IMG/VR virus record: IMGVR_UViG_3300037493_000871
Coordinates: 1 to 64,000 of that record
Origin: a virus
DNA length: 64,000 nt
Reading direction: 5' to 3' (one strand)
In this document: positions 46,403 through 63,539 of the stretch, one piece after another
Numbering within the stretch: the stretch's first letter is position 1
Layout: each line of letters begins with the position of its first letter
Translations under genes and position numbers: made by a program
The notes under the pieces: generated by a model
Told to the model about the DNA's origin: nothing
Databases searched by the model: none
What the model saw: the letters and a program-made list of their open reading frames with translations, nothing else

Positions 46403-46428
46403 AACTAGGTTTGTTGGGGCCCCTAGTT
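46403..46428 (-). other. inverted repeat between polymerase and exonuclease
   Basis: AACTAGG / CCTAGTT pairs across a 12-base gap at the end of the polymerase gene, with no T run after it. It may fold over the ribosome site of the exonuclease gene. Weak evidence. Confidence 0.4.
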
Positions 46429-49166
46429 TAACAGTCCCCGTACGATTCGCCCATCCCTGATTCACAGGCCAAAGGCAAGCCTGTCGCCCACTTGGGGTTC
46501 CAGCTCATGCACTCCTCCAGATAGGCTTGCGCCTCCTTGGCTTCTTCCTTCTTGGCGATGATGGCGATCGCATCATGCACAGTCAGCACCACCTTGTACC
46601 GCTTGGCTACGCGCAGCATCTGTTCGGCCACCACCTGCCTAGCTACCGCTTGGCATACGTTCTCCACGCAGTTATGAACTACAAAGGGTTCCGAATGACC
46701 TCGGACCATGAAGCGCGTTCTGGGTCCGGCGTTGAGGAGGTCATAGACAGGTTCCGGTGCCAGCGAAACGCGAGAGTCGATCTCGAAATACCCGTTACCG
46801 CATGTGCTTTCCGCAAGTCCACCGGCAGTGACCCCCTGCGGTTGGTCGCTTGTACCGCCATCGACACCCATCGGCAGTTTTCCGGGGTATACGACCCGTT
46901 GTTGTCCCGTCGATCCAACGTCAACCCCGAAGCGTAAGTTGGCCCCATGTCGGCCCAGAACGCCTCGAAAGACTGTTGCCATGCTGCGCATACAGTAACC
47001 CCACGCGCCCCGTAGTTGTGCCATGCCTGATGTGAGGGCAGTCGGCATCGGTCGCGCATCGACCTCCACACCCAATATGCGGGATGTTTGGACATTGCGT
47101 GCGTCTGGATTTTTGCCCCCACCATGCACCCGCACGAGGGGTGTCCCCCACGCTTGGCGTACTTCTCCGTGTCGATCGCTGCCCGTGTTACGCAACCCCC
47201 GCACTGGCATTGGAACTTCCACAGCGACCTGCGACCGTCCGACCCCATGTAGTGCAGGGCCGTCAGGTATCCGAACTTCTGCCCGGTGTAATCCTTCGCA
47301 CGCTGATGCATCGCGCCAACCTTTCTCTGTAAGTACTTTGTGGTCCGGCGTCATCCGAACACCGTCTACCACGATGGTATGCTTTTCGCCTTGGTATGTC
47401 AACCCGCCATGTTGCACCCATTCAACCCCGTCCCAAACTTGATCGTCTTGTCGCACCGATCCGATAGGAATCCACCCCCGATGCGTTAGGACTTGAGTAT
47501 CTCCTGCCAAACATTTGCCTCCATAGATACGCACAGGCAGCCCCTTGGATGTGTACACAAGCTCGCGCTTGCCCTCGTCGCCAATGTGAGCCCGTAGGCC
47601 CGGGTACTGGATGTGCAACCCATTGGGTAGGGTCAAGCCCGCGCCGGGTATTGCGTTCACAATGCCTATTGCATCGACCTGAATAGACTGGCCCTGCATC
47701 AACGCCGTAAGGCCGTTGCCGGCCCGTTGCCAGAACGCTGCGATGTGCCCTGCACTAGACCTGTATGCGTCAATAATGCGCTTGGCTTCTTCCAGAGTAA
47801 CTTCAACCCCTGCCTGTGTCTTTAAGAACGCCTTGAGCTTAACGTGCCCAACGCCATAGCCTGCGCCCAGCACAACCGTCTTGCCCACCTGCCGCTGGCT
47901 ACCTGCTCCGGTGGTCACCTGCTCCACGGGGATGCCGTAAATCTTGGATGCCATCAGGCTGTACACGTCCTGCTTGTCCCTGAATGCTTGCAGCAAGTCC
48001 TCCTGCCCGGCCAGCCAAGCCAGCACACGGGCCTCAATCTGCGCGGAGTCACAGTCAATCACCACGTAACCTTCTGGGGCCCTGATGGCCTTCTTGATCT
48101 TGCCAGCGTCTGCGCCGCGTGACGGCAGGTTCTGCAGGTTTACAGAGTCTTGGCCAGACCAGCGACCAGAATGGGCCCCGTAGTAACGCAGAGGTACAGG
48201 AAACTTACCTCGACCAGACATGCCAATAAAGCGTTGCGTACGAGTCTCTTCAAGTGTTGTCTTGTTTCCAAGGCGGGCGGCGACAAGCATTTGGACTCGT
48301 ACATCAGGGTGCTCCATCAACTCTTTGAATGCATCATCGGTTTTGGCAAATGCATAGGCCAGCTTCTTGGTAGTGGCGCTGATCTTCGTGGGCGGCACAA
48401 CGCCGTAGTTCTCCAGCACCAAGGCAAACTTGGGGTTTGACATGAGCAGCTTCTTGATGCCATCCATGCCCTCGCTGAAGATCGTATGCACGTACTCGGG
48501 CTCGGCGTCTTTCAGCATGAAGTCCCGCACACTCTCCATCAAGGCTTCCTTGCGGTCTTTGACTTCTTCCAGATGCGCAACCAGCATGGGTTTGTCTAAT
48601 ATTAGAACGGGGTCGATGAACATGCGCAGCGTCAGGTCAATCAGCTTGAGCTCGGACTTGGGGAACCCAAGGTTCATGTACTGCATGAACAAGTCGTAAG
48701 TCAGGTTCACGTCATTGCAGCAGTACTCACCGTAGCGTTCCAACTCATGCCATGTGAAGTCAGCGTAGTGCTTGCCCTTGGCGTTGTCCACCTCGTTGCC
48801 CTTCACACCAGCCACCATGCGTTCAGCTTGCGCTTTGAGACTGTGCGACCTCTCATGCGGGTACAGCGCACGAGACATACCCATAATGTCTACCCACGCC
48901 ATCGGGTCAACGCCGTAGTGCCACTTCAGCACAGCACCATCGAACGCAGTGTTCTGGCACACCACGATCTTGTCCGACCAATCAATGCTGGCCAGCACGC
49001 GCTCTACGTCAGGCTTAGGCACCCATACGGTTGGGCCGTTGTCGATCTTGTATGCGAACCCAATGGTTTCCCACTGGGGCCCACGCACGTACTCTTCGGT
49101 CGTCAGCTTGGAGAAGCCAAAGTCCTGTGAGTAGTAAGTTTCTAGGTCGATTGTTAGGATGCTCAT
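46428..49166 (-). CDS. family A DNA polymerase with intein
   Basis: 912-residue precursor; after splicing 631 residues. The N-terminal 3'-5' exonuclease starts ILTIDLETY (Asp7, Glu9). Polymerase motif A is DCDSAQIEARVLA (about 368-380), motif B RQVGKTVVLGAGYG (about 420-435), motif C VHDA near 862 (the usual HDE is HDA). The intein occupies residues 552-832, between YGGK and CVENVCQAVARQ, where other polymerases read KLVENV. No 5'-3' nuclease domain. One palindrome copy lies at 48595-48606. The start overlaps the next gene's stop (ATGA). Confidence 0.93.
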   Translation of the reverse strand: MSILTIDLETYYSQDFGFSKLTTEEYVRGPQWETIGFAYKIDNGPTVWVPKPDVERVLASIDWSDKIVVCQNTAFDGAVLKWHYGVDPMAWVDIMGMSRALYPHERSHSLKAQAERMVAGVKGNEVDNAKGKHYADFTWHELERYGEYCCNDVNLTYDLFMQYMNLGFPKSELKLIDLTLRMFIDPVLILDKPMLVAHLEEVKDRKEALMESVRDFMLKDAEPEYVHTIFSEGMDGIKKLLMSNPKFALVLENYGVVPPTKISATTKKLAYAFAKTDDAFKELMEHPDVRVQMLVAARLGNKTTLEETRTQRFIGMSGRGKFPVPLRYYGAHSGRWSGQDSVNLQNLPSRGADAGKIKKAIRAPEGYVVIDCDSAQIEARVLAWLAGQEDLLQAFRDKQDVYSLMASKIYGIPVEQVTTGAGSQRQVGKTVVLGAGYGVGHVKLKAFLKTQAGVEVTLEEAKRIIDAYRSSAGHIAAFWQRAGNGLTALMQGQSIQVDAIGIVNAIPGAGLTLPNGLHIQYPGLRAHIGDEGKRELVYTSKGLPVRIYGGKCLAGDTQVLTHRGWIPIGSVRQDDQVWDGVEWVQHGGLTYQGEKHTIVVDGVRMTPDHKVLTEKGWRDASACEGLHRAEVRIPDGPALHGVGRSQVAVEVPMPVRGLRNTGSDRHGEVRQAWGTPLVRVHGGGKNPDARNVQTSRILGVEVDARPMPTALTSGMAQLRGAWGYCMRSMATVFRGVLGRHGANLRFGVDVGSTGQQRVVYPGKLPMGVDGGTSDQPQGVTAGGLAESTCGNGYFEIDSRVSLAPEPVYDLLNAGPRTRFMVRGHSEPFVVHNCVENVCQAVARQVVAEQMLRVAKRYKVVLTVHDAIAIIAKKEEAKEAQAYLEECMSWNPKWATGLPLACESGMGESYGDC
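46671..47513 (-). mobile_element. intein in DNA polymerase
   Basis: 281 residues. N-terminal block A begins CLAGDTQVLTHRGW with Cys1 (precursor 552). Block B is MTPDHKVLT with Thr55 and His58 of the intein. The end is VYDLLNAGPRTRFMV then FVVHN, block F/G with the penultimate His and Asn832, followed by Cys833. No LAGLIDADG or in-frame HNH is present. About 190 residues between blocks have no family signature in this frame but are free of stops. An HNH gene overlaps this part in another frame. Confidence 0.93.
46679..47311 (-). CDS. HNH homing endonuclease nested in intein (+1 frame)
   Basis: 210 residues, same strand as the polymerase but shifted by +1. The ATG lies in the codons right after block B, with GAAAGG 8-9 bases upstream; the TAG falls 5 bases before the intein's last Asn codon. 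Cysteines 35, 37, 40, 60 and 62 look zinc-binding. The core (80-159) has WRSMRDRC, YGARGVTVC, W111, TLDRRDNNGSY and NCRWV, the hallmark of phage HNH homing enzymes. Residues about 165-185 look like a HTH. It would cut intein-free polymerase genes. Confidence 0.85.
   Translation of the reverse strand: MHQRAKDYTGQKFGYLTALHYMGSDGRRSLWKFQCQCGGCVTRAAIDTEKYAKRGGHPSCGCMVGAKIQTHAMSKHPAYWVWRSMRDRCRLPSHQAWHNYGARGVTVCAAWQQSFEAFWADMGPTYASGLTLDRRDNNGSYTPENCRWVSMAVQATNRRGSLPVDLRKAHAVTGISRSTLAFRWHRNLSMTSSTPDPERASWSEVIRNPL
48595..48606. repeat. TCTAATATTAGA palindrome, copy 1
   Basis: Inside the polymerase exonuclease region, encoding LIL of VLILDKP. The most leftward copy, 5.7 kb from its neighbour. Confidence 0.85.
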
Positions 49167-49636
49167 TTATAGAGATCCCGCGGATTGATGTTGGTAATGC
49201 CTGTGCCCGTGACGAAAGAAGCCTGTATCGCAGCGGTCATGGCCTGTTGGGTACCCACCATACTGTTCGCTATGCTTTTCCCATAATGCCGACTTTGCGT
49301 GCTGTATCGCAGTGTCTGCTCTTCCTTCTCGTCATTCGGGCGCATCATGTTGTACACGGTCGTTGCAGTGAACCGCTCTCGCTTCGCTGCGGTAAACGCT
49401 TGCTGCAGTGCCTCGCGCTCGTAAGGGGTAAGAAACCAAAACTCTACGGATTCGTCGGCTACCCGTACTGCGTTCTCGTCATCTCTGCGCGGCGCAAAAT
49501 CACGGTCCATCATGCGTTCAAGATACCGAAGCCGTGGGCTGTCGTAGACTTGCGGCGTTTGCCCACTAATTGGCCCGAAGAAGTCATCGGGTCTTGTTTC
49601 GAGGGCCTCAATAATCATTTCAATTGCTGGGTTCAT
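49163..49636 (-). CDS. unknown 157-residue protein
   Basis: Charged, helical, with an Arg-rich LRYLERMMDRDFAPRRDDEN middle and a C-terminal part rich in Ala, Thr and Gly. Overlaps polymerase and the VRR-NUC gene by 4 bp each. Not recognised. Possibly a polymerase partner by location. Confidence 0.65.
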   Translation of the reverse strand: MNPAIEMIIEALETRPDDFFGPISGQTPQVYDSPRLRYLERMMDRDFAPRRDDENAVRVADESVEFWFLTPYEREALQQAFTAAKRERFTATTVYNMMRPNDEKEEQTLRYSTQSRHYGKSIANSMVGTQQAMTAAIQASFVTGTGITNINPRDLYK

Positions 49637-49938
49637 GGTGCTACGTTCTCCGCCATTTTGATGTGAATAAGGATGTCATTTAGGTTGGCCTCGTTGACGA
49701 CTAGGGAGACCCCGCCAGCCTTTTTAATGTCTTCAAGGTGTTTGTCTTGCAGTGCAGTTGTCTTGCCCTTGCCCGCCTTGGCCTCGATCGCAATGAAGTA
49801 TCCCTTGACGCAGCACAGGAAGTCCGGCACGCCACTGTTGCCAAATGCTGAGCCAATAGGCATAGCGAAGTACACGCCATGCTCCTTCAAGATCGCCTTG
49901 ATCTTGGCTTTGACTTTTGCTTCAGGCGTTTGTGCCAT
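49633..49938 (-). CDS. VRR-NUC nuclease
   Basis: 101 residues. SGVPDFLCC (35-43) with Asp39, IEAKAG with Glu52 and Lys54, then Gln64 form the PD-(D/E)XK site of the compact VRR-NUC type. Such enzymes cut branched DNA. It overlaps the DUF3310 gene by 17 bp. Confidence 0.85.
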   Translation of the reverse strand: MAQTPEAKVKAKIKAILKEHGVYFAMPIGSAFGNSGVPDFLCCVKGYFIAIEAKAGKGKTTALQDKHLEDIKKAGGVSLVVNEANLNDILIHIKMAENVAP

Positions 49939-50179
49939 ATTTGGTTTCCATTTCGATCAGCAGGTCAACTTCATGCTTGATCTTTTGCAGGTCTTCAAAG
50001 CGTTTGCTTGCCGGTTTGTTGCGCCAGCGTGTGATGCGCTTGACGATGCAGCCCTCAAGAAAATTCAAGTTGTTCGCGGAGATGTACTCCACAGGCTGAA
50101 TAGGTTTGTCCTTGTAGTGGTTGCCCGCAACCTGCACATCCAGTGCGCTTGCTGAACCTGTGTCTGCTCGTTCAATCAT
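49922..50179 (-). CDS. DUF3310-like protein
   Basis: 85 residues. GNHYKDKPIQPVEYISANNL (19-38) and FLEGCIVKRITRW then KIKHEVDLL are the DUF3310 pattern, a family common in phages and sometimes called nucleotide kinase without proof. Function unknown. Confidence 0.85.
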   Translation of the reverse strand: MIERADTGSASALDVQVAGNHYKDKPIQPVEYISANNLNFLEGCIVKRITRWRNKPASKRFEDLQKIKHEVDLLIEMETKYGTNA

Positions 50180-50472
50180 CGTGTTACCTTTGGGTTAGGG
50201 AGGTGAATAATGGACCCTGCATGGATGTTTGCAAGGGGGAGGAGGGAGGTGTGGCCCGTACCGAACTGCTTGTACTTGAGCCCCTCATCGTCGTCGAGTA
50301 GCCCTGCCTTGTGTCGGCTCTTGAAGTGCGGGTCCGTGGCAAAGATGCTAGGGCGGGGGTCTTCTTTCCACCGAAACGGTGACAGGGGCGGAGTGGGTTT
50401 ATCTGAGCGCATCACAAAGCATCCTTTAGAGGGGTCGTATTTAATCATATCCATGACTTGAATGGTTGTCAT
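50176..50472 (-). CDS. unknown 98-residue protein
   Basis: Starts MTTIQVMDMIKYDPSKG, with Pro-rich middle and HTSLLPLANIHAG near the end. No family recognised. Overlaps both neighbours by 4 bp. Confidence 0.62.
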   Translation of the reverse strand: MTTIQVMDMIKYDPSKGCFVMRSDKPTPPLSPFRWKEDPRPSIFATDPHFKSRHKAGLLDDDEGLKYKQFGTGHTSLLPLANIHAGSIIHLPNPKVTR

Positions 50473-50681
50473 TGTTGCCTCGCTTCCAACATGGCGTCTG
50501 CCATTTCATAAGCAAATACGGACGTGACGCAGGCTTCGTGTGATGTAAGGTCAAGATTTTTATTGCGCTCCACAAGGCCCTGCATCGCCTTGGCTGCAAA
50601 GTAGTCGCGCAGGGTCATGCCAAGGTACATGGGGTCATTGGGAGTCGGGAAGGCCGCACCTCCGACGTTGTCTTTGCTCAT
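50469..50681 (-). CDS. small protein with GMTLRDYFAAKAMQ motif
   Basis: 70 residues from ATG 50681, with AAGGAG upstream. The words GAAFP and GMTLRDYFAAKAMQ occur in a very widespread phage/prophage family of unknown function. A second helix ends the protein. Confidence 0.75.
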   Translation of the reverse strand: MSKDNVGGAAFPTPNDPMYLGMTLRDYFAAKAMQGLVERNKNLDLTSHEACVTSVFAYEMADAMLEARQQ

Positions 50682-51016
50682 TTCTTCTCCTTCTTTGGTC
50701 GTGGTCGTAAGATGGGCGGGGTCTCGACAAGCCACAGTGAGTAGGACTTGGTGCGATGGTCTTTGTACTGGCGCACAGCATGCAGCTTGGTCAAGCCTTT
50801 GTTCTGCATGAAGCGATGCAACGCCTTGCGCACGGCTTGGAACTCGTCGTTGGGTATCTGGAGCGCTTGATTGAACTCAAGCAGCTTCTCGAACTTATCG
50901 TCATGCGCAGTCTTGCCCTTGATTGACCTGCCGCACACCACCGGGATGGGCACCAGCTTGACAACATCTTCGCCAGTGAAGGGGTTCACTCGCCCCACAA
51001 ATTTAGTTACGTTCAT
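50678..51016 (-). CDS. unknown 112-residue basic protein
   Basis: N-terminal beta-like words (FVGRVNPFTGEDVVKLVP), then helical, with a strongly basic C-terminal PRPKKEKK. Four-base overlaps on both sides. Not recognised. Confidence 0.62.
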   Translation of the reverse strand: MNVTKFVGRVNPFTGEDVVKLVPIPVVCGRSIKGKTAHDDKFEKLLEFNQALQIPNDEFQAVRKALHRFMQNKGLTKLHAVRQYKDHRTKSYSLWLVETPPILRPRPKKEKK

Positions 51017-51324
51017 TTGAACCCCTCCGCCTTGGCGATCGCGTCCCGGGCCAAGTCAAACGCTTTTACGATCTCGTCATTTCTGTCGGGGTCATAGCAA
51101 TGGTTCATCATGAGGTACAGCGCGGTAAGCAGCTCGGGAGCAGCGGCCATCAAGCACGCGTTTGCCTTGGCGTTTTTGAGCGTAGAACGCTTGTCGCCCT
51201 TGACTCTGGCCAATGGTGCGAACCCGCCAGACTCGCAAGTGATTGTGAACTCTCCGTTTATACCTTCACGGTAATGCCACGGTCCCGGTGTGTAAAGTCC
51301 AATGTTTTCAAATGCTTCGTTCAT
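51013..51324 (-). CDS. unknown protein with AAAPELL motif
   Basis: 103 residues from ATG 51324. TPGPWHY near 12-18 and NACLMAAAPELLTALYLM at about 56-73 match a widespread phage family of unknown role. The longer frame to 51369 overlaps the next gene more and is rejected. Confidence 0.7.
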   Translation of the reverse strand: MNEAFENIGLYTPGPWHYREGINGEFTITCESGGFAPLARVKGDKRSTLKNAKANACLMAAAPELLTALYLMMNHCYDPDRNDEIVKAFDLARDAIAKAEGFK

Positions 51325-52333: not shown

Positions 52334-52336
52334 GTG

Positions 52337-53093: not shown

Positions 53094-53296
53094 TTCTTAC
53101 TCCTCGCCTCGCGGCACAGTTGTTTTATCTCTGCTGAATAATCGGGACTAAACTCGATCAGCGAACAGTCCATCTTCTTGGCTTCGTGCATCGGTGGGTA
53201 CATCCAAGCGCATAGGAACAGCACACCGAGGAACATCACCACCATGCACACCACCAAGATGCCATCAATCAGGCACATCCAAAAAATACTTTTCAT
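53090..53296 (-). CDS. 68-residue membrane protein
   Basis: Starts MKSIFWMCLIDGILVVCMVV; residues 4-32 are one strong membrane segment, then a charged tail to the end. No lipobox. Could sit in the inner membrane with the C-terminus in the cytosol. Not recognised. Confidence 0.68.
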   Translation of the reverse strand: MKSIFWMCLIDGILVVCMVVMFLGVLFLCAWMYPPMHEAKKMDCSLIEFSPDYSAEIKQLCREARSKK

Positions 53297-53766
53297 CCCT
53301 TCTCTCCTTTAGGCCATCCCAGCTTGCTCAAACCCGCGACCACGTTGGCCAGCGCAGGTAGGTTCTTGGTGGGCGCTTCGACTGTGGGGAAATACTTCTT
53401 GAACTCAGGCAAGCGTGTCTCTAGCATCTTGAGTGTGGTGCAGGCATTGACTGCGTTGTTCAGGTTGTACTCGGCGCTGATGCGTGCGTCTTCTTCGTCT
53501 TTGAACGGCTTGGTGATTTCCTTGATGGTGTCGTCGGACACATCACCGACGATAAGCTCGCGGTGCCCGTAGTCATTGATGAAGCTGCCGAAGTACTGTG
53601 TGCGCAACGCCAGCGGGGTCTTGTTGTACACCTTGCGCACCTCTGGGCTCATGGCCTTGATGATGGCGGCTTGTATCGCGTCCTTGCGTTTGATCTTGTC
53701 AGGTTTTGGCACATCCTGCATGATGGCGCGAACGATGGCTTGGCGGTCGTATTTAGTAAGTTTCAT
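53293..53766 (-). CDS. unknown helical protein, possibly Nmad5-like
   Basis: 157 residues beginning MKLTKYDRQAIVRAIMQDVP, a start that reminds me of a nucleotide-modification-associated phage family (Nmad5), but I cannot confirm this. The rest is helical with basic patches. Overlaps the next gene by 4 bp. Confidence 0.62.
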   Translation of the reverse strand: MKLTKYDRQAIVRAIMQDVPKPDKIKRKDAIQAAIIKAMSPEVRKVYNKTPLALRTQYFGSFINDYGHRELIVGDVSDDTIKEITKPFKDEEDARISAEYNLNNAVNACTTLKMLETRLPEFKKYFPTVEAPTKNLPALANVVAGLSKLGWPKGEKG

Positions 53767-53768
53767 GG

Positions 53769-54305
53769 TTAGGCTCCGAACATTTCTTTGAGCTCGCGGT
53801 ACAGATCATGGGCTTGATACACGGACAAGTCTTCCAGCATTTTCTCAGGGCTGAAGTCTGACTTGCGAATGATGAACTTGGACTTGGCCGGGGCTTCTTC
53901 CGTGGGCCGGCGCTGCTGCTCAAGCAAAGTACGCACATCTGGCAAGTTCTTGGCACTGAACGTAGGCTTGGGCTTGTACTCAATCTTTTTCTTGGTCGGG
54001 TCCGGCATTGCAACGTACTCGGGCACAACTGCGTACAGCTGGAACCCATCTCTGCGGGTAAGACCTTTGCGGCAGAACTGCGAGATCAGGGAGGTGGTAG
54101 ATGCGACCTTGAATCCCTTGAGTTTTAAGTCTTGGATGACCCCGTTGATGGGCTTGCCCGGATGTTCTTTGATGTAGTCGAACAAAACACGCGACACATT
54201 GTTGGTTACGCGCTTGTCGGTCTTGGTTGGGGTTTGCGTCATAGTAGCCTCTGGCTTATTCCATTCGTTGAGAAGTTTGGTCATTTCGGTTTTGATGTCA
54301 GGCAT
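53769..54305 (-). CDS. unknown 178-residue protein with wHTH-like part
   Basis: Residues about 25-95 (NNVSRVLFDYIKEHPGKPIN; STTSLISQFCRKGLTRR) look like a winged helix, with a disordered linker and a charged C-terminal helix ending KEMFGA. ATG 54305 has GGAG 6 bases upstream. Could bind DNA. Unknown role. Confidence 0.65.
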   Translation of the reverse strand: MPDIKTEMTKLLNEWNKPEATMTQTPTKTDKRVTNNVSRVLFDYIKEHPGKPINGVIQDLKLKGFKVASTTSLISQFCRKGLTRRDGFQLYAVVPEYVAMPDPTKKKIEYKPKPTFSAKNLPDVRTLLEQQRRPTEEAPAKSKFIIRKSDFSPEKMLEDLSVYQAHDLYRELKEMFGA

Positions 54306-54480
54306 GGTCATCTCCAAATAAATCTTGCTGTCTAATATTAGATGGCTCAGGCATGGTGTGAGCCAAGTCCTCTACCTCGCGGATACGCATTTCAAGGCGC
54401 TCGCTTAGGGCTCGGATAAGCCCCGACTGCCCATCGGCATGTCGCAGTAGTTCTTCATCCGTCAGGTGGTCATACGTCAT
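54298..54480 (-). CDS. small acidic helical protein
   Basis: 60 residues. MTYDHLTDEELLRHADGQSG then a charged helix; SNIRQQ near 48-53 is encoded by the palindrome at 54331. Short overlaps with both neighbours. Not recognised. Confidence 0.62.
   Translation of the reverse strand: MTYDHLTDEELLRHADGQSGLIRALSERLEMRIREVEDLAHTMPEPSNIRQQDLFGDDHA
54331..54342. repeat. TCTAATATTAGA palindrome, copy 2
   Basis: Within the 54298 gene, read as Ser-Asn-Ile-Arg. Confidence 0.85.
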
Positions 54481-54791
54481 TGTTTGCTCATTTCTTTAAA
54501 GGACTCAAGGTTGTTGTTGGCATCGGTTTCAAACCATACGATGCACTCAGGTGGGGGCTGTTTGATGATGGACATATGCCCACCGATCTTGGCCATGTTG
54601 ATGATGCTTACTAACCATTCAGGCCGATTGGATATATGGCCAACCCAAGAAGTCTCGCGCCCCTCCCGCCAGCAACGCAGGTTGTACTCGTCGCCCCGCT
54701 CTTCGTACCGATACTCTCGGTGGTCCTCGGGTAGGTCATCTTGGTAGCCGAAGCTACGCTCCATCGTTCTAAGCGCGTCTCGTTTATTCAT
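54477..54791 (-). CDS. unknown 104-residue protein
   Basis: MNKRDALRTMERSFGYQDDL start, many charged residues and aromatic words (WREGRETSWVGHISNRPEW). The shorter start at 54791 overlaps the 54784 gene end by 8 bp and is preferred over 54824. Not recognised. Confidence 0.62.
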   Translation of the reverse strand: MNKRDALRTMERSFGYQDDLPEDHREYRYEERGDEYNLRCWREGRETSWVGHISNRPEWLVSIINMAKIGGHMSIIKQPPPECIVWFETDANNNLESFKEMSKQ

Positions 54792-55698
54792 CAATTCCCC
54801 AATCAAATGCAGACAGAATCTCATCGACCTTCTGCTTGGTTAATACACGGGTGCTGTCTTCTTCTCGCAACTCTTTAGGAGTTACCCCAGACAATACATC
54901 CTCAAGCTTACGCCTAGCTTTCTCAAGCGCCGGGTCTTTCGTTACGTTCATCACAGTGAGCAGATCACACAACTCCAATGCGCCCGTCACCATCGTGTCG
55001 TGGAACACACGCTTCTTGATCTTGCCGTCCTCGGTCTCCTCAACAGTCAAGCGATCGCTCAAGCGGGACAGGGCATCATGCAAGCGAGTCCACGAATCTT
55101 GGTTGGCCGCGGCCAGTTGGGCCTCGATGCGCTGCTCGTACTGTGCGATCAGTTCGCGCTGTACTGTGCTCTCAATGTCAAGTCGGAAGTCGCCCGCCGT
55201 AGGCAGTGGTGTGAAGGAAGTCTCCATGCGGAAACGCTTAGCCACAAGGTGCCGGCTAGGGTACTCAGCGCGATCAAACAACGTACCCAACTGGAATGCA
55301 GCAGCCGCTACCAGCGTGTCGTACTTGTCAAGGAACTCACCCACCAGCCGATCAAATTCAATCTTGTGGCGGCCCATGATCTTCTGGTACTCCAGCAGTG
55401 CAGCAGTAGGCAGCAAGCGGGTTCCTTGGTCGCTCCAAGGCAGTGTGAGGCGGTAGTGCTCGGCACGGGCACGGGCTTGGAACTTAGTCACTGCGTCCAG
55501 CTCTTTGCATTCGGCAAACAGGTTCTTGTACACCGATGCAGCCTTCTTGGAGTTAGACCCCTTGGCCGTTGTGACCTCGGCTTGTGTGCCCCGGTCTTGC
55601 TTGCGCCCCGAGTAGATTGCGATGTTTAGGTCTACCATCATAGCGGCGCGAGCCACACCAGCGATAGGGGAGGGGTTAGTTGTTGTCATGTAGTTCAT
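54784..55698 (-). CDS. DUF3150-like protein, partner of MoxR/VWA
   Basis: 304 residues from ATG 55698. The sequence ILSAFDWGIDE at the end, TRVLTKQKVDEIL, LTLPWSDQGTRLLPTAALLE and KFQARARAEHYRLTLPW resemble DUF3150 proteins that accompany MoxR ATPases and VWA proteins on phages and plasmids. Almost all helical. A palindrome lies 13 bases before the ATG. A longer frame to 55902 overlaps other genes and is rejected. Confidence 0.7.
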   Translation of the reverse strand: MNYMTTTNPSPIAGVARAAMMVDLNIAIYSGRKQDRGTQAEVTTAKGSNSKKAASVYKNLFAECKELDAVTKFQARARAEHYRLTLPWSDQGTRLLPTAALLEYQKIMGRHKIEFDRLVGEFLDKYDTLVAAAAFQLGTLFDRAEYPSRHLVAKRFRMETSFTPLPTAGDFRLDIESTVQRELIAQYEQRIEAQLAAANQDSWTRLHDALSRLSDRLTVEETEDGKIKKRVFHDTMVTGALELCDLLTVMNVTKDPALEKARRKLEDVLSGVTPKELREEDSTRVLTKQKVDEILSAFDWGIDE

Positions 55699-55710
55699 GA
55701 TGTTCTTTCG

Positions 55711-55722
55711 TCTAATATTAGA
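55711..55722. repeat. TCTAATATTAGA palindrome, copy 3
   Basis: Lies 12 bases upstream of the DUF3150-like ATG and carries the stop codon of the 55718 gene. Confidence 0.88.
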
Positions 55723-55960
55723 TTGGTGTATGGGTTGGTTTCTTGTGCATCTCAAGCATGAGTGCCATGAAATGTGGGGGGAACACATCGTCGTCGATGT
55801 ATATCTTGTCGGTGTCCGGGGACGGATTAAGGTGGATGATACGTACGAACCAGCCCTCCTTCTTGGCGCGTCGGGCGTAGGCCACCAGCTTGTCGCCTTC
55901 AAACATGTCCCACATGGGGCCGTGTTGCTTGGTCATTGAGAATTTCCATGTGCGGGTCAT
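55718..55960 (-). CDS. unknown 80-residue protein
   Basis: MTRTWKFSMTKQHGPMWDMF start, a compact basic/aromatic domain (KEGWFVRIIHLNPSPD) and acidic DTDKIYIDDDVFPPHF. Ends inside palindrome copy 3 (stop TAA). Not recognised. Confidence 0.62.
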   Translation of the reverse strand: MTRTWKFSMTKQHGPMWDMFEGDKLVAYARRAKKEGWFVRIIHLNPSPDTDKIYIDDDVFPPHFMALMLEMHKKPTHTPI

Positions 55961-57041: not shown

Positions 57042-57044
57042 AGG

Positions 57045-57362
57045 TCAATTCCTTTGTTGCATTCTTTGCAGTTCAGTGGCCGCCAATATCCGGCCTACTG
57101 CCTTTGCTGCTTTGAGCTTGTTGAAGTAGGAAATCTCGTCCCAATCGTTCTCGACGTCATCCCATACCTCCAACTTGAACGGCCCGTTGTCTTTGTCAAA
57201 CGATTCGACGCACGCTATGTAGATGCCTCCATCAGCGAAGCTATCCGTAGGCGGGTCTGCGGGAATCGTATTCAAGAACCAGCGATATATCTTCTTCTTG
57301 CTTGGTGATACGAACACCAGTGATTCCTCAACGGGGCTCCATCGTTTTCTTAGTTCAGCCAT
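57045..57362 (-). CDS. unknown 105-residue protein, palindrome-controlled
   Basis: MAELRKRWSPVEESLVFVSP start with a very good AAGGAGG 5 bases upstream; IYIACVESFDKDN near 47-60 and FNKLKAAKAVGRILAATELQ at the end resemble the 56724 protein. A palindrome sits directly before the ribosome site. Function unknown. Confidence 0.65.
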   Translation of the reverse strand: MAELRKRWSPVEESLVFVSPSKKKIYRWFLNTIPADPPTDSFADGGIYIACVESFDKDNGPFKLEVWDDVENDWDEISYFNKLKAAKAVGRILAATELQRMQQRN

Positions 57363-57375
57363 GCTGACCTCCTTG

Positions 57376-57387
57376 TCTAATATTAGA
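57376..57387. repeat. TCTAATATTAGA palindrome, copy 4
   Basis: Lies 13 bases upstream of ATG 57362, touching AAGGAGG. Its TAA is the stop of the VWA gene. Confidence 0.9.
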
Positions 57388-58552
57388 CGTCGATGTGAAT
57401 TGTTGTGCCGAACGGCGCGGACATACCTGCGGTTGTAACTGCCCACATGGTTGGGATATCCGTGTTACCCCATGAGCCTACATAGCCATCGGTGAACTGC
57501 ACGATCGCATCGGGCTTGATATTGTTTTTGCGCAAGTGATCGAACAACACCGAACCATCAGTGCCCCCGCCGCCCTTGATCTTGAGGTCTTGCACAGCGA
57601 ACTGGCCGTCCTCGAATACCTGCTCACCCGTTACCTCGGTATCCCAATAGATCACACGGCACTTGCTTGGCTTGATCTGCTCGATGATGGTCGCAATCTC
57701 AGAGACGAACCGAGTCATCTCGTCACCACCAAAGATTGAACCTGACGTGTCAAACCCGATCACCAGCTCCGTCATAGTTGTGCCTACCATTGAGGGCATA
57801 TAGACGTCATCAGCAAGGAACCTGCGGTTGGGCTTGCGCCATGAGGATTCGTCACGACCTGCACACGTCTCAGTAATGAAGTCACGCAGCACCTTACGCC
57901 AGTCAACCTTAGGCGCAAGCAAGTCACCGAACACACCGTCCTCACCGCCAGAGCCCTTGCCTTGCATCTTCTTACGCATGATCTCACCCTGACGGATGGC
58001 GCGTTGAATCTCGTTGGCTTGTGCTTGTTCTTGAGCAGGGTCACCATTGGCCTCGTTGCCCTCCCAGTCATGCTCGTCCATGCCATCGCCATCGCCCTGA
58101 CCTTGGCCATCTTTTTGCTGCTGCTTGATGTCGTCAAAGATTTGCTTGACCGACCAGCCACGGTACTTAGGCTCGGGCTTGATACCCACATCAGGCATCT
58201 TGATGAACCCCTCACCATCATCGGTGTCATGCAGCGTACCGTTGACAAAGTAGTCCGCAGCTACGTTGGCCATCATGGCATTCTCTTCGTGCAGTGCTTT
58301 CCATACATTCATGTGACGATAGGCTTTGTGCGTTGCCTCATGCAAGACAAGGAAGCGAAGCTGCTGGTCAGTCTTCATATGCTCTTCAATGAACTTGGGG
58401 TTGTATCGCACGTCCCATCCATCGGTCGCAGCCGTTGGTACTGAGTCATCCACGATCACCTTGCCGCAAGCAAGCACCCCTGAGTAGGCGCAGAACTTCT
58501 TGTGCTGCATGATGGCGATGTGTGCCTTCTTGATTCGATCTTGTACGTTCAT
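57383..58552 (-). CDS. VWA-domain protein with metallopeptidase-like motif
   Basis: 389 residues. HEATH (71-75) with Asp100 downstream is a peptidase-like zinc site (DUF2201-type). A Gln/Gly/Asp linker lies around 145-175. The C-terminal VWA domain has MIDAS DTSGS (268-272), Thr331 and Asp355 (TDGY). VWA proteins of this class work with a MoxR ATPase, here the 59425 gene, to remodel or load a metal/protein target. The palindrome at 58572 sits before its ribosome site. Confidence 0.85.
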   Translation of the reverse strand: MNVQDRIKKAHIAIMQHKKFCAYSGVLACGKVIVDDSVPTAATDGWDVRYNPKFIEEHMKTDQQLRFLVLHEATHKAYRHMNVWKALHEENAMMANVAADYFVNGTLHDTDDGEGFIKMPDVGIKPEPKYRGWSVKQIFDDIKQQQKDGQGQGDGDGMDEHDWEGNEANGDPAQEQAQANEIQRAIRQGEIMRKKMQGKGSGGEDGVFGDLLAPKVDWRKVLRDFITETCAGRDESSWRKPNRRFLADDVYMPSMVGTTMTELVIGFDTSGSIFGGDEMTRFVSEIATIIEQIKPSKCRVIYWDTEVTGEQVFEDGQFAVQDLKIKGGGGTDGSVLFDHLRKNNIKPDAIVQFTDGYVGSWGNTDIPTMWAVTTAGMSAPFGTTIHIDV

Positions 58553-58571
58553 GGTTTTTCCTTAGGTTGTA

Positions 58572-58583
58572 TCTAATATTAGA
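58572..58583. repeat. TCTAATATTAGA palindrome, copy 5
   Basis: 19 bases upstream of the VWA ATG at 58552; its TAA ends the 58579 gene. Confidence 0.9.
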
Positions 58584-58857: not shown

Positions 58858-59024
58858 GATTGTTTCCTTGCGTAGTTGAGTAGCCCTGTTTGAAGGCGAA
58901 TTGAACTGTCCGTCATGTAGTTCTTCAGCGGGGGTTGGTACCCCTTGCTGATACGGTTCGGATGCCAGTCTTTATGCAAGCGCACGATGGTGCGCCCGTT
59001 ACTTGTTTTCTCTACGATTAGCAT
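58854..59024 (-). CDS. unknown 56-residue protein
   Basis: From ATG 59024: MLIVEKTSNGRTIVRLHKDW, small basic fold. Overlaps the 58579 gene by 4 bp. Not recognised. Confidence 0.6.
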   Translation of the reverse strand: MLIVEKTSNGRTIVRLHKDWHPNRISKGYQPPLKNYMTDSSIRLQTGLLNYARKQS

Positions 59025-59025
59025 G

Positions 59026-59196
59026 TCAGCTCCTTTGGTTAAAAGAAGCCATCCACGCAAACAGCGCGACCTTTGCTTCAGCTTTACTCATGTCAAAGCG
59101 GGCTTCAAGATAGGGAACAGCTCCCCACATATTGACCTCGCTCGAATCACGCAAGTCAATTAGATAGTCGTGTATTTCTTGTGTTGTTGGTTTCAT
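59026..59196 (-). CDS. unknown 56-residue protein
   Basis: From ATG 59196: MKPTTQEIHDYLIDLRDSSE, two helices with WGAVPYLEARF. A TTG at 59208 is an alternative start. Not recognised. Confidence 0.6.
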   Translation of the reverse strand: MKPTTQEIHDYLIDLRDSSEVNMWGAVPYLEARFDMSKAEAKVALFAWMASFNQRS

Positions 59197-59197
59197 T

Positions 59198-59425
59198 TCA
59201 TTTCCCAATGTTGATTACGCCCATGATCTTCATGAGCCCAATGATTTCGGCGCGTCTAATATTAGATGCGATGGTGGTGCTGTGCTCGTCTAAGTGGGGG
59301 GAGTTCAACACGGCGTCTAAATCCCACCGCCAAGGCTTGTACCAAATACGCTGAGGAATGAGCGCGTAGTATTGATTGTCGAGGGGCATCATGTACATAT
59401 CCCCCGATTGAAGTTTCCTTGCCAT
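59198..59425 (-). CDS. unknown 75-residue protein
   Basis: MARKLQSGDMYMMPLDNQYY start, then an aromatic middle (RIWYKPWRWDLD) and SNIRRAEI encoded over palindrome copy 6. The start overlaps the MoxR stop by one base (TAATG), so the two are translated in sequence. Not recognised. Confidence 0.62.
   Translation of the reverse strand: MARKLQSGDMYMMPLDNQYYALIPQRIWYKPWRWDLDAVLNSPHLDEHSTTIASNIRRAEIIGLMKIMGVINIGK
59255..59266. repeat. TCTAATATTAGA palindrome, copy 6
   Basis: Within the 59198 gene, read as Ser-Asn-Ile-Arg. Confidence 0.85.
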
Positions 59426-60486
59426 TAGAAGAACTTACCGAGCTTGGCGCAAGCCGCGGTGAACGGGCGATGCTGACACGCCATGCTGACCTTGGACTTG
59501 TTGGATGCTACGGATGTGACGAACAGTGCATGGGCCTCGAAGGACTCACCACCCATACGATCGGCATACGCCATGACCTGAGGGATATTGGTTTCGTTGA
59601 CACGACCGGCCAACATGAACGACATGATGAACATAGCGCCGGCACCCTTGGGCAGCTTAGCTTTCATGGGGTCTTTGACGATGCTATCGAACGATGGCAG
59701 TTGATCTGCCAGATTGACAAGCGCCTCCATGTCTCGGGCTGCCGCCTCGCCTACCGTACCGGACAATGCAGGGATAAGCGCAGCGCCTAGCACGTCACGC
59801 TGAGCGATGATGTTGGATGACTTGGCAAGCGAACGGGGTGAGCAGAACGCACGGGTATTGCCCGTCAGAGGGTTGAAGATGTAGGGGTTCTTCTCCTTCT
59901 TGTCCATGTCCACGTAGCAGTCGAACACCTGCGGATACTGTTTGGCAAAGGCCATCACCTCGGGGGCCACGCCGTTGTTGGACGCCCAGTCGAGCCACTC
60001 GTCAGACGTAGGGTTCGCCACGTTGACCACAGTCATACGGTTAAACGCATGGGCAGGGATGTTGTCACCCACGCCGTCAGTGTCAAGGTTGGTTGTACCG
60101 AACACGATCGAACCCGTAGGCAACTCAACGTCACCGATGCGGTGCTCAAGGATGACAGGCAGCAGCATATTCAACACAGGGCGCGAGGCCTTGCCCAACT
60201 CGTCAAGCATCAGCACGACAGGGCGGTTTTGATTACGACCCACACCGAAGCGCACATTCGGCGCATAAGCAGTCGTCATAGTTTCTTTGTCGATCACGGG
60301 CATACCCAGATCACCAAGGTCAAGGTTAGCCACGTCGATGTAGCACACCTGATAGTCGGGCAGTTCACGCTTGAGGTCGGCCAAGATGGACGACTTGCCG
60401 ATGCCGGGCTGACCACGCAGGAGCAGTGTGTTTGTGGAGCCGATGTTACGGATAAGGGTAGATGCTTGGGAGAGAGTTACGTTCAT
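59425..60486 (-). CDS. MoxR-type AAA+ ATPase
   Basis: 353 residues, typical MoxR length. Walker A GQPGIGKS (25-32), Walker B VLMLDE (91-96), sensor-1 like FGTTNLD near 129-135, and arginine-rich motifs farther on. MoxR proteins are chaperone-like ATPases that act with VWA partners (57383 gene). Promoted by a palindrome just before its ribosome site (60509). Good AGGAA upstream of the ATG. Confidence 0.9.
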   Translation of the reverse strand: MNVTLSQASTLIRNIGSTNTLLLRGQPGIGKSSILADLKRELPDYQVCYIDVANLDLGDLGMPVIDKETMTTAYAPNVRFGVGRNQNRPVVLMLDELGKASRPVLNMLLPVILEHRIGDVELPTGSIVFGTTNLDTDGVGDNIPAHAFNRMTVVNVANPTSDEWLDWASNNGVAPEVMAFAKQYPQVFDCYVDMDKKEKNPYIFNPLTGNTRAFCSPRSLAKSSNIIAQRDVLGAALIPALSGTVGEAAARDMEALVNLADQLPSFDSIVKDPMKAKLPKGAGAMFIMSFMLAGRVNETNIPQVMAYADRMGGESFEAHALFVTSVASNKSKVSMACQHRPFTAACAKLGKFF

Positions 60487-60508
60487 GGTTTTTCCTAGGG
60501 TTGTTGTG

Positions 60509-60520
60509 TCTAATATTAGA
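60509..60520. repeat. TCTAATATTAGA palindrome, copy 7
   Basis: 22 bases upstream of the MoxR ATG at 60486, before AGGAA. No gene end here. Confidence 0.9.
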
Positions 60521-60543
60521 CGGGTGAGATTACTTGTTTAGAC

Positions 60544-61317
60544 TTACGGGTGGATTACGAGGACGTCGGTACGAACTACCTCGGTCATGTCTTTGGCGCA
60601 TTGAGCCATCAAGGACTTCCATGCATCGCGCCAGTCGTCATGCGCTTGAATTTTCATATGCCGGTTGGCATAGGCTGGGTACTTCACAAGGCCGACTACG
60701 TCGGGCCACTGGTTCACATATACGTCATCACGTACAAGCTTCTCCATCGAAGCGTTGAGCCACGATACCTCGGGCACCCCGGCAGCTTGATACAGGATAG
60801 GGAATGCATCCTTGAAGCCTGACTCGGCTACGTCCCTACGGAACTCGGCGCGTTCATCTTTGTCTGCCCGCTTGCGCTCGAATGGCACGGGGGTGCCGCG
60901 TTGGTTGCCGTATGCGTCGAACATAATGCCGTCGAAGAACATGACCGTCCCGCTAGCTCTCGTGATAGTTTGTTGGCTCATGCCGAACACACGGCGGCCT
61001 CCGACCCACATGCGCGGCCCAGTGAAGAACGACCCGAGTGCTGTGTTCAAGTTCCTGAGCGTTGTGCTTGTCCACCACCCGCCAGTGCTCAGTCGGACTG
61101 TGCCATCCTCGTATGCCGTAAGGATATCTGTGCGGTGCATACGCACCACCATTGCATTGGTTGCCTCGGTGCCATGTCCGGCCCATGAAGGTCGAGCTAC
61201 GACCCGGAAGTGTGTCTTGCTTCGCCGTGATGAGTCGGCAGGGGCCTCGCCCTTGTGCGCCCCGCGCTTGTACATATAGCGCTCCAAGTGCAGCTTGAGT
61301 TTGGTGTACGTGTTCAT
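60544..61317 (-). CDS. unknown 257-residue protein
   Basis: Basic N-terminal 45 residues; then MVVRMHRTDILTAYEDGTVR (56-75) and STGGWWTSTTL, a motif I have seen in phage proteins of unknown function that lie near MoxR genes. The C-terminal half is charged and helical. A palindrome lies 16 bases before the ATG, before AAGGAA. Confidence 0.68.
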   Translation of the reverse strand: MNTYTKLKLHLERYMYKRGAHKGEAPADSSRRSKTHFRVVARPSWAGHGTEATNAMVVRMHRTDILTAYEDGTVRLSTGGWWTSTTLRNLNTALGSFFTGPRMWVGGRRVFGMSQQTITRASGTVMFFDGIMFDAYGNQRGTPVPFERKRADKDERAEFRRDVAESGFKDAFPILYQAAGVPEVSWLNASMEKLVRDDVYVNQWPDVVGLVKYPAYANRHMKIQAHDDWRDAWKSLMAQCAKDMTEVVRTDVLVIHP

Positions 61318-61333
61318 GGTGTTGTTCCTTATG

Positions 61334-61345
61334 TCTAATATTAGA
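61334..61345. repeat. TCTAATATTAGA palindrome, copy 8
   Basis: 16 bases upstream of ATG 61317 and flanked by G/C pairs (GTCTAATATTAGAC), the most extended form. Confidence 0.9.
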
Positions 61346-61348
61346 CGG

Positions 61349-61558
61349 TTACGTTCGTTTTGGATTGAGTTGAGAGAGGGTTGCCCGATCGGTGACCAGC
61401 ATATAGTTGGACTTGTTCAGGGGCACGGCGCAGTGCTTGACGGCACGCGCTTCGCTTTCACCACACGCTTGGCATGTGGGTCGTTGCATATGTCGGCGCT
61501 TAGGCTCGACTCGCACTGCATAGCAGCACATGCATATGGGTAGATATCGTTCGTTCAT
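61349..61558 (-). CDS. zinc-ribbon-like 69-residue protein
   Basis: From ATG 61558. CMCC (9-12) and CQAC (29-32) make a likely zinc site, followed by basic residues. Function unknown. Confidence 0.68.
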   Translation of the reverse strand: MNERYLPICMCCYAVRVEPKRRHMQRPTCQACGESEARAVKHCAVPLNKSNYMLVTDRATLSQLNPKRT

Positions 61559-61560
61559 GG

Positions 61561-61827
61561 TCATGCCCACGGGTATCGGGCGAGGAACCCGCTGTGCTGT
61601 TGGGGGTACAGCTTGCGTAGTGATTCGCGCACTTCAAGGTAGCTGGCATACGTCCGTGCATAGCTTGCTTGGGCATCGAGCACCATCTCTTGCGGGGTCT
61701 CGGGGTGCCTCATTATTTCGAGCAGCGTGCCGCCCATCTCTTGCGTCTTGGCATAGAGCGCCTTGTAGTAGTCACGTACTTTGGGCAGCGCCATACGCAG
61801 CTTGAGCTGTCGTTCTTTGTCGGTCAT
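61561..61827 (-). CDS. unknown 88-residue helical protein
   Basis: From ATG 61827: MTDKERQLKLRMALPKVRDY, helix throughout, ends FLARYPWA. Overlaps the stop of the 30-residue gene by one base (TAATG). Not recognised. Confidence 0.65.
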   Translation of the reverse strand: MTDKERQLKLRMALPKVRDYYKALYAKTQEMGGTLLEIMRHPETPQEMVLDAQASYARTYASYLEVRESLRKLYPQQHSGFLARYPWA

Positions 61828-61919
61828 TAGGGTCTCCAATAAAGTAAGTCAAGTGCCACGACGATCAGGCACAGGAGGAACACGGCTCGCTCTATGCGTT
61901 GCCAAGGGGTTTTGTTCAT
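61827..61919 (-). CDS. 30-residue single-pass membrane peptide
   Basis: A very short gene: MNKTPWQRIERAVFLLCLIV, then VALDLLYWRP. A basic N-terminus followed by a hydrophobic helix and a Trp/Arg end suggests an inner-membrane peptide with cytosolic N-terminus. It overlaps the genes on both sides by 1 and 4 bases, so coupled translation is likely. Function unknown. Confidence 0.62.
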   Translation of the reverse strand: MNKTPWQRIERAVFLLCLIVVALDLLYWRP

Positions 61920-62056
61920 TTCGTCAGCCTCAGTTTTAGCATGTATGCAATGGTGTACAGCCGTGCCCATTCTTCGATGTACTTGGTGTCCTCTACGTCA
62001 GCGCGTAGTTCTTCGAGTTCTTGCAGTCGCAGGTTCAGGGTTGTCATGTCGTTCAT
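61916..62056 (-). CDS. 46-residue coiled-coil peptide
   Basis: A short gene: MNDMTTLNLRLQELEELRAD then VEDTKYIEEWARLYTIAYML, a heptad-like helix. ATG 62056 overlaps the next gene by 4 bases. Function unknown. Confidence 0.62.
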   Translation of the reverse strand: MNDMTTLNLRLQELEELRADVEDTKYIEEWARLYTIAYMLKLRLTK

Positions 62057-62337
62057 CGTTTGCTCCAGTTGGTTGTAATCATGATCTTGGCCACGGCCAA
62101 GGCGTCGTCTAATATTAGATTGTTGGGCAGCTCTGCGAACGTGCCCCCGTCATAGTTGTTGCCGGTGCTCATGTTGATGACGTACTTGTCCCTGTTAAAG
62201 CTCAGGTCTTGCAAGTACCCCATATAGAACCCGCCGTACTTGGTGTCGTGGCCGGGGTCATCCTTGTCCACGAGAAAGTACATCCCCTCGCGGTCGGTGT
62301 CGTCCATGTTGCTCTCTTGTACCCACTCTGGTGTCAT
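62053..62337 (-). CDS. small paralogue family, member A
   Basis: 94 residues: acidic N-terminal region, YMGYLQDLSF, and the shared end LPNNLILDDALAVAKIMI (about 71-88). AGGAG 6 bases before the ATG. One of four tandem relatives (62053, 62334, 62561, 62782). Function unknown; the palindrome is read within LIL. Confidence 0.7.
   Translation of the reverse strand: MTPEWVQESNMDDTDREGMYFLVDKDDPGHDTKYGGFYMGYLQDLSFNRDKYVINMSTGNNYDGGTFAELPNNLILDDALAVAKIMITTNWSKR
62108..62119. repeat. TCTAATATTAGA palindrome, copy 9
   Basis: In paralogue member A, read as Leu-Ile-Leu. Confidence 0.85.
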
Positions 62338-62558
62338 GTCGTGCTCCTGTTTGCCATGATGATTACCTTGGCTATCTCTTTGGCCTCGGTTAGGGTTAGC
62401 TCGCTGGGCAGGATCGTGAAGGACTCGCTCTTACTTAGCCATACCTTGCCGGTGGCCGGGCTCATGCTGCCTAGTGGGCGAGCGCGAGCATCTTCCATCA
62501 AGTACCACAACGAGCCGCTGTACTGCCAGTACACATTGTTTGCATCCTCTGCGTTCAT
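62334..62558 (-). CDS. small paralogue family, member B
   Basis: 74 residues: NAEDANNVYWQYSGSLWYLM start, then LPSELTLTEAKEIAKVIIMA at the end. The shared end is diverged (ELTLTEA for LILDEA) and the palindrome is lost. AGGAGATAGCA precedes the ATG. Confidence 0.68.
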   Translation of the reverse strand: MNAEDANNVYWQYSGSLWYLMEDARARPLGSMSPATGKVWLSKSESFTILPSELTLTEAKEIAKVIIMANRSTT

Positions 62559-62560
62559 TG

Positions 62561-62779
62561 CTATCTCCTATGGGCTAGTATCAGCATCCGGGCGGCAGCC
62601 AGTGCCTCGTCTAATATTAGATCGTCAGGTAGGAAGGCAATCTCGTTCCCGTTGACTGTGTACACACACCGCGAGTTACTTCCGAACGCCCCGAAGAACG
62701 CATTGGGATGCAAGTCCGCAGGGTCAACGGGGTACAGGTAGTGCAGGTTGTTCCCGCTATCGTCCCAATATGTTTCCAT
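62561..62779 (-). CDS. small paralogue family, member C
   Basis: 72 residues from ATG 62779: METYWDDSGNNLHYLYPV start and LPDDLILDEALAAARMLILA end, nearly identical in both ends to member D. The upstream AGGAGATAGCA is the same as before members B and D. Confidence 0.72.
   Translation of the reverse strand: METYWDDSGNNLHYLYPVDPADLHPNAFFGAFGSNSRCVYTVNGNEIAFLPDDLILDEALAAARMLILAHRR
62610..62621. repeat. TCTAATATTAGA palindrome, copy 10
   Basis: In paralogue member C; identical context to copy 11 (CGTCTAATATTAGATCGTC). Confidence 0.85.
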
Positions 62780-62781
62780 TG

Positions 62782-62994
62782 CTATCTCCTGTTTGCCATG
62801 ATGATTACCTTGGCCGCAGCCAGTGCCTCGTCTAATATTAGATCGTCCGGCAGGACTGCTACCGGCTTGCTGCCGCCGTCCCGCGTATACACTGCTCGGC
62901 GGTGGGAGTCGTATGCTCCTATGTAGAGGCTGCGCGGCCCCTTCTCCCACAGGAACAGCAAGCCCACGGTCGGGGTGTCCCAATATGTTTCCAT
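62782..62994 (-). CDS. small paralogue family, member D
   Basis: 70 residues from ATG 62994: METYWDTPTVGLLFLW start, then AYDSHRRAVYTRDGG and LPDDLILDEALAAAKVIIMA. The variable middle contrasts with the conserved ends. Good AAGGAG. Function unknown. Confidence 0.72.
   Translation of the reverse strand: METYWDTPTVGLLFLWEKGPRSLYIGAYDSHRRAVYTRDGGSKPVAVLPDDLILDEALAAAKVIIMANRR
62831..62842. repeat. TCTAATATTAGA palindrome, copy 11
   Basis: In paralogue member D, read as Leu-Ile-Leu. Confidence 0.85.
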
Positions 62995-63065
62995 TGCTAT
63001 CTCCTTACTGTGCATTACATAAGGCACGGATTACCCATGCCTTACAAGATAAACAGTTGTTGTTT

Positions 63066-63539
63066 TCACCCACATCGCTTTGTTTTTGCCGCAAGGTATG
63101 CAGCGTATGCCTCCTCTGCCGTATCAAACAGCCCGAGGTACTGCTGTACCCCATCGGCTTGGAAGTCCGCACGCCATTGGTTCTTATGGGCGACCACCCC
63201 GCGAAACCCGGACTTGTTATCCGCACGGGGGCCATGCTTGTTGAGGTTGTTCTCTACGCGGTTGGACAATCTAATATTAGATATGCGGTTGTCATCCCGA
63301 ACCCCATTGATGTGGTCGAGTTCGCTCTCCGGCCAGTTACCGTACACATAGCACCACGCAAGCCTATGGGCAAAACATCTATGCCCCTCCACAGTGCAAT
63401 AAATGTATCCGGCGGAATGCTTGGTGCCCACGGCTGACCCAACGGCGCGGCCTTTCACGCCAACTCGGCGCGTAAAGATACCCGTGGCTGGGGCGTAATT
63501 GAGTAGTTCCCGCAAGCGGGTAGAATCTGGTCTGCTCAT
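63066..63539 (-). CDS. HNH endonuclease with AP2 DNA-binding domain
   Basis: 157 residues. CFAHRLAW (55-62) and LDHINGVRDDNRISNIRLS (74-92) form the HNH core with His76. An AP2 domain follows at about 108-150 (SGFRGVVAHKNQWRADF; YLGLFDTAEEAYAAYLAAK). The first gene behind the early promoter, so it is expressed early. Mobile HNH-AP2 genes are common in phages. Copy 12 of the palindrome lies in the SNIR codons. Confidence 0.92.
   Translation of the reverse strand: MSRPDSTRLRELLNYAPATGIFTRRVGVKGRAVGSAVGTKHSAGYIYCTVEGHRCFAHRLAWCYVYGNWPESELDHINGVRDDNRISNIRLSNRVENNLNKHGPRADNKSGFRGVVAHKNQWRADFQADGVQQYLGLFDTAEEAYAAYLAAKTKRCG
63270..63281. repeat. TCTAATATTAGA palindrome, copy 12
   Basis: In the HNH-AP2 gene, read as Ser-Asn-Ile-Arg. 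The most promoter-proximal copy. Confidence 0.85.

Follow-up and report, generated by a model that had tools for sequence, protein, structure and literature searches.

The 64,000-nt stretch analysed here (the window) covers positions 1 to 64,000 of IMG/VR virus record IMGVR_UViG_3300037493_000871. It belongs to a phage whose late genes run rightward from the terminase (1.2–3.3 kb) to about 39 kb and whose early genes run leftward from the right end. The early genes are marked by a 12-bp palindrome, TCTAATATTAGA, with 12 exact copies in the window and 15 in the full record (65,570 bp), where the extra three lie at 64032, 65039 and 65401. The gene at 338–874 is also leftward, and the early block probably wraps around the record ends because relatives place this gene between the terminase and the early genes; from that gene order, positions 1–1235 would join the leftward early block once the ends are closed. 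Throughout, genes are open reading frames (ORFs) taken without a gene finder, from records that may be incomplete.

Several copies stand just 5' of an early gene on the minus strand. These are found at 54331–54342 (22 nt from the assumed start of 53769–54308 and within the end of a small upstream ORF), 55711–55722 (12 nt from the start of 54784–55698), 57376–57387 (13 nt from the start of 57045–57362), 58572–58583 (19 nt from the start of 57383–58552), 60509–60520 (22 nt from the ATPase gene, 59425–60486) and 61334–61345 (16 nt from 60544–61317). The sites at 55711, 57376 and 58572 overlap the end of the upstream ORF, the first that of 55718–55960 and the second at the stop codon of 57383–58552. 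Other copies lie within minus-strand genes: 48595–48606 in the DNA polymerase gene (46428–49166), 59255–59266 in a small gene (59198–59425), 62108–62119 in a duplicated small gene (62053–62337), 62610–62621 and 62831–62842 each in a duplicated small gene, and 63270–63281 in an HNH/AP2 endonuclease gene (63066–63539).

The word never appears in dinucleotide-preserving shuffles of the window (chance expectation 0), and its backwards control pattern has 0 copies in the full record. Permitting one mismatch adds a single window copy, TCTATTATTAGA, at 303–314. The first-pass annotation, which had reported the palindrome from the window alone, gave all twelve coordinates exactly; its observation that the word is missing from the rightward block also holds, with every copy in the leftward early block and 0 in the rightward one. 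The shrinking spacing that it described is approximate, a rough trend through successive gaps of 5736, 1380, 1665, 1196, 683, 1254, 825, 774, 502, 221, 439, 762, 1007 and 362. It had also read the word within genes as SNIR or LIL, as do we, the third frame containing TAA, and had suspected gene duplication behind three copies; those at 62108, 62610 and 62831 do sit in a run of four similar small genes (62053–63027, minus strand), of which three carry the word and 62334–62558 does not.

The first early gene (338–874, minus strand) encodes a candidate operator-binding regulator of 178 amino acids, here called family 7 together with its relatives. The protein is helical, with a helix-turn-helix (HTH)-like helix pair at residues 61–73 and 78–94 and conserved C-terminal helices. 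Its gene has a sigma-70-like promoter, TTGACA-17-TACATT (921–949, minus strand), and the -35 box is abutted by a two-mismatch copy of the palindrome, TCTATTATTAGT (949–960, minus strand), in the place where relatives carry their cognate word. A terminator-like hairpin with a T run, read from the sequence, follows the gene (271–294, minus strand), and the one-mismatch copy at 303–314 lies between this hairpin and the regulator stop codon.

The terminase shares less than 60% identity with those of named phages, the nearest among the matches listed being 38–45% identical (HTVC023P, DSL-LC04 and others), and it has 226 relatives in IMG/VR. The three nearest of these carry 4, 7 and 6 copies of TCTAATATTAGA. 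Close relatives thus keep the word, and the rightward block is free of it, so that neither of the refuting outcomes named by the first-pass annotation occurred within the clade. When over-represented palindromes were searched for without bias, about 30 more distant relatives proved to have their own exact or near-exact word, in many copies, mainly in the early block and at matching places. These words are TCTAACGTTAGA, TCTAAGCTTAGA, TATAACCTTATA, TATAACGTTATA, CTTAAGCTTAAG, TTTAAGGTTAAA and TATACCGGTATA, with the spaced forms TCTAACNGTTAGA, TTTAACNGTTAAA and TCTAACNNGTTAGA; 13- and 14-bp versions occur. We assigned the word classes from the dominant words. Well-covered relatives have 8–17 sites each, and some have fewer. 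The cultured relatives DSL-LC04 and HTVC023P show no comparable palindrome set in the 45–50 kb examined.

Most words share the half-site core TAA, and their half-sites vary jointly between phages, including the central pair (TA, GC, CG, also GG/CC); the non-palindromic centres GG and CC are found in both orientations. Such joint change, central pair included, is predicted for a DNA-binding dimer and would not be needed by an RNA hairpin, which strongly indicates that the reader is a protein dimer acting on DNA.

Placement across the clade follows the same pattern as in the window. For 89 of 208 sites (20 records), a start codon with a ribosome-binding-site-like sequence lies at most 45 nt downstream on the early strand, compared with a mean of 21 and a maximum of 36 for random positions (200 trials) and with 6 on the opposite strand. 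The distance from site to start is most often 13–24 nt. A site precedes the ATPase gene in 23/27 contigs and the gene 57383–58552, which encodes a vWA-type protein, in 16/26, in both cases mostly with other words, and it precedes m60544 in 19/28 contigs, usually at 16–17 nt. It was never seen before the DNA polymerase gene across the compared contigs. Apart from the one at the regulator promoter, the sites in the window fall mostly into the gap that separates a stop codon from the ribosome-binding site of the next gene, without a promoter of their own. We found no common -35, -10 or other promoter element around the sites away from the regulator, and we rejected the idea that the sites are -10 elements or promoters, as the close promoter-like pairs are mostly the regulator gene's own. 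Taken together, these data show the set of sites, the selection on it, its positions and the replacement of one word by another at the same positions, and they support clade-wide operator sets in a group of uncultured freshwater phages. The first-pass annotation had offered a multi-site operator or a nucleoid-like site of an unknown protein; the cognate words at the same places speak for the operator, while a nucleoid-like role leaves the placement before start codons unexplained.

Several lines point to the first early gene product as the reader of these words. Across the family, the promoter of this gene is strong (TTGACA-17-TAnnnT type), and in nearly all contigs read the phage's own word, often slightly degenerate, lies 0–19 bp upstream of the -35 box. 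In AlphaFold2 models, two members fold into helices: a long first one, the HTH-like pair and a further pair at the C-terminus (mean predicted local distance difference test scores 85 and 83; predicted template modelling scores 0.53–0.54). Variation that follows the word is seen in the N-terminal half of the protein but not in its C-terminal part. In a nearest-neighbour test, where the outer two bases of the word are predicted from the most similar protein and the scores ignore shared descent, whole family 7 was correct for 29/34 contigs, its helix window for 29/34 and its C-terminus for 15/34, against 22/37 for TerL, 20/38 for TerS and 21/31 for family 5, the second early protein. The two family-7 columns most associated with the word fall in the predicted recognition helix.

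Contigs found later by a word scan alone supplied seven more family-7 genes, and 7/7 carry the helix type expected from their word, although L472, L474 and L475 are closely related to earlier proteins and the independent weight is below seven. TCTAAT-type words go with the helix KT[FM]xEY (L346, L347, L348), TATAAC with N[ST]A[QR]QY (L473, L474, L475) and the mixed TATAA/TCTAA with ASGAQY (L472). In L473 and L018, the helix of the TATAAC type sits on a different backbone. In the remaining word-scan contigs, most of them fragments, the family-7 gene is absent.

Family 7 has no match among the named phages. The PDB gave no sequence match at E<=1 and, for two members, no convincing structural match; this does not show that the fold differs from that of the cluster A mycobacteriophage repressor, which has an N-terminal HTH plus a stoperator domain and a solved structure. 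A fold comparison with BFVD returned one uncharacterised viral match. Family 7 is apparently a previously undescribed family of candidate DNA-binding proteins.

Our reading of these data is that TCTAATATTAGA is the version, in this phage, of a dispersed operator set, read by the HTH dimer from 338–874 to shut off the early genes, and we hold it with moderate confidence. Mechanistically, the small dimeric protein would bind the palindromes across the early block. At the 338–874 promoter, its degenerate site precedes the -35 box, a position which suggests autoregulation, so the protein probably controls its own gene. Binding between genes that lack their own promoter suggests a stoperator-like roadblock: once enough protein has accumulated, RNA polymerase would be stopped during elongation by the bound dimers and the early genes would fall silent. 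With only about 16 nt between site and start codon, the downstream sites are unlikely to serve for activation. The same protein would silence a second infecting phage of the same type. Phages whose genes are otherwise alike have different word versions, a diversity for which superinfection exclusion offers an attractive explanation. The blocking of transcription, the timing of shut-off and the immunity are what we infer.

Several points weigh against this reading. Repression itself is something that we infer, several sites lie deep inside genes, and family 7 has no Pfam, PHROG or PDB match that would confirm DNA binding. The nearest-neighbour scores are uncorrected for phylogeny; yet descent alone does not account for the contrast between the two halves of family 7. 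Some families with few sequences (primase, DNA polymerase) have higher-scoring single columns, their column scores being inflated by phylogeny. The weakest point is the window's own regulator, which is divergent (at most 37% identical to relatives) and whose helix, EESAVKNYPMS, differs from the KT[FM]xEY of close relatives with the same word. The nearest helix is GESALRNYKTS of genome G028, whose word, TCTAACGTTAGA, has only the outer TCTAA in common, and a search for a closer relative of the regulator found none. A recent replacement of the regulator by a protein of compatible specificity is plausible.

The first-pass annotation had proposed other readers, the HTH proteins at 42089, 51321 and 53769, and the family-7 gene fits better than these. 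The gene at 51321 is found in only a few relatives and that at 53769 is absent from several word-bearing genomes; the protein at 42089, though universal, has a recognition helix that does not change in step with the word. We had ourselves first preferred family 5 (65055–65570 of the full record), acting as a KorA-like global regulator. Almost all of the site-bearing genomes examined encode a related HTH protein in the same immediate-early region. A weak match links the family to KorA (E 0.003), and the KorA operator is itself a 12-bp palindrome. However, near-identical recognition helices (SEIRVHQI) accompany four words (TATAACC, CTTAAGC, TCTAAGG and TCTAAGC), and prediction of the word from the family-5 HTH succeeds in only 19/31 contigs. 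We demoted the candidate on account of one helix serving four words, and now regard it as an unlikely reader. This family (65055–65570, minus strand; L005:19055–19570) evolves fast and combines a ribbon-helix-helix-like N-terminus with one or two sigma-70-region-4/KorA-like HTH units; in the present record, an operator word lies inside the gene.

The sites could instead be DNA-organising or segregation-like points (nucleoid, Noc, ParB/KorB-like) rather than transcription switches. Exact dispersed palindromes, some deep within genes, would suit such a role, and KorB-type systems also use about a dozen of them. We nevertheless think it quite improbable: no ParB_N or ParA domain was found in 11 genomes, and the sites cluster 13–24 nt before start codons of one strand and at the regulator promoter. 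That same distance is what a translational operator in messenger RNA (mRNA), just upstream of the ribosome-binding site, would predict, and a near-start function has been proposed for the start-associated sequences of cluster K mycobacteriophages (PMC3203893). But the site at the regulator promoter is upstream of the -35 box, hence outside that transcript, the centre bases vary symmetrically though they could not pair in a 12-nt hairpin, and several sites are within genes, so that action in mRNA has a slim chance of being correct. A host protein's site exploited by phages would account for the word in two apparently unrelated 67-kb phages without a detected family-7 gene (28 exact copies each, described below), but the word differs between close relatives and goes with a phage gene, making this explanation very improbable.

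Among known systems, KorA and KorB of plasmid RK2 are dimeric global regulators that read dispersed short palindromes. Unlike RK2, these phages lack detected ParB_N and ParA, and their KorA-like HTH protein does not track the word. No match to PF00589, PF00239, PF13614 or PF02195 (integrase, resolvase, ParA, ParB) was found in 11 long, possibly incomplete records; a temperate or plasmid-maintenance life style was rejected for want of these genes. Cluster A mycobacteriophages (L5, Bxb1) are temperate. Each of their stoperators is an asymmetric 13-mer, all are oriented alike relative to transcription, and the protein that binds them is a monomer containing two DNA-binding domains (PMC6550527, PMC9283540). 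As in cluster A, the sites described here are many, dispersed and mostly in short intergenic gaps (here enriched just 5' of starts), one lies at the regulator's own promoter region (degenerate in this window), and the consensus changes with the regulator between related phages. In contrast to cluster A, the sites are palindromic, no solved chain shows a detected sequence relation to the candidate regulator, and integrase and parABS were not found in the 11 genomes. By analogy, the system would work like the cluster A stoperators, but it is not a member of that group on the features tested.

The start-associated sequences of cluster K (TM4 and relatives) are similar in number and place, with 11–19 copies per genome beside the start codons of certain genes, most of which are non-structural. 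They are asymmetric 13-mers, 3–7 bp from the start and overlapping the ribosome-binding region, and have no known binder (PMC3203893), whereas the present sites are palindromes mostly 13–24 nt from the start. The 21–22-bp repeats of T1-like phages (TLS, Stevie, T1) are likewise dispersed, intergenic and upstream of lytic-phage genes, and their authors likened them to stoperators; they are asymmetric and oriented, precede starts by about 76 bases in TLS and have no candidate binder (PMC11447400, PMC4319613), unlike the palindromes here with theirs. The TLS authors name the function and the reader of dispersed pre-gene repeats, which occur in several lytic phages, as an open question (PMC11447400).

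A wider proposal, which we put forward only tentatively and think has less than an even chance, is that this freshwater, apparently non-integrating clade has a new HTH family with at least nine specificities, each matched to 8–17 palindromic stop sites in the early block, forming an immunity-type system without lysogeny. If so, early genes would be silenced late and phages of the same specificity excluded, with new words favoured by selection. The at least nine natural word versions, the candidate reader with a predicted helix that tracks the word and the conserved positions make binding and function directly testable, and word swaps could reveal how regulator and sites change together.

Two other phages carry the word of this window. 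The 67-kb G048 and G049 (IMG/VR 3300036939_000039 and 3300035686_000004; loci L349–L352) have 28 exact TCTAATATTAGA copies each, spread genome-wide and mostly flanked by G and C; no family-7 gene was detected in them and no similarity to this phage was found. Either convergence or a shared host factor would account for the word there. The 5.7-kb contig L476 (CAIRTT010000433.1), which encodes a terminase 90% identical to that of this phage, was placed in the bin of an uncultured Armatimonadetes metagenome-assembled genome (Kiruna); this may be a hint of the host or a mis-binning.

The early block also encodes a primase-helicase-like protein, an SNF2-type helicase, a PD-(D/E)XK-like exonuclease and the ATPase, together with the vWA-type protein and a DNA polymerase of family A type that carries an intein-like insert; the vWA label and the intein are both our own readings of the sequence. 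The insert (about 280 codons, in 46428–49166, minus strand) is missing from most relatives, and a few, for example L086–L088, align over the full length. A match to the Nmad5 (nucleotide modification associated) domain was found at 53293–53766 (minus strand; E 7e-8). Finally, the operator-dense region holds two endonuclease-like genes, both on the minus strand: 63066–63539, with HNH_3 and AP2 domains, and 64182–65027 of the full record, in which an HTH is fused to an endonuclease VII/HNH-like domain.

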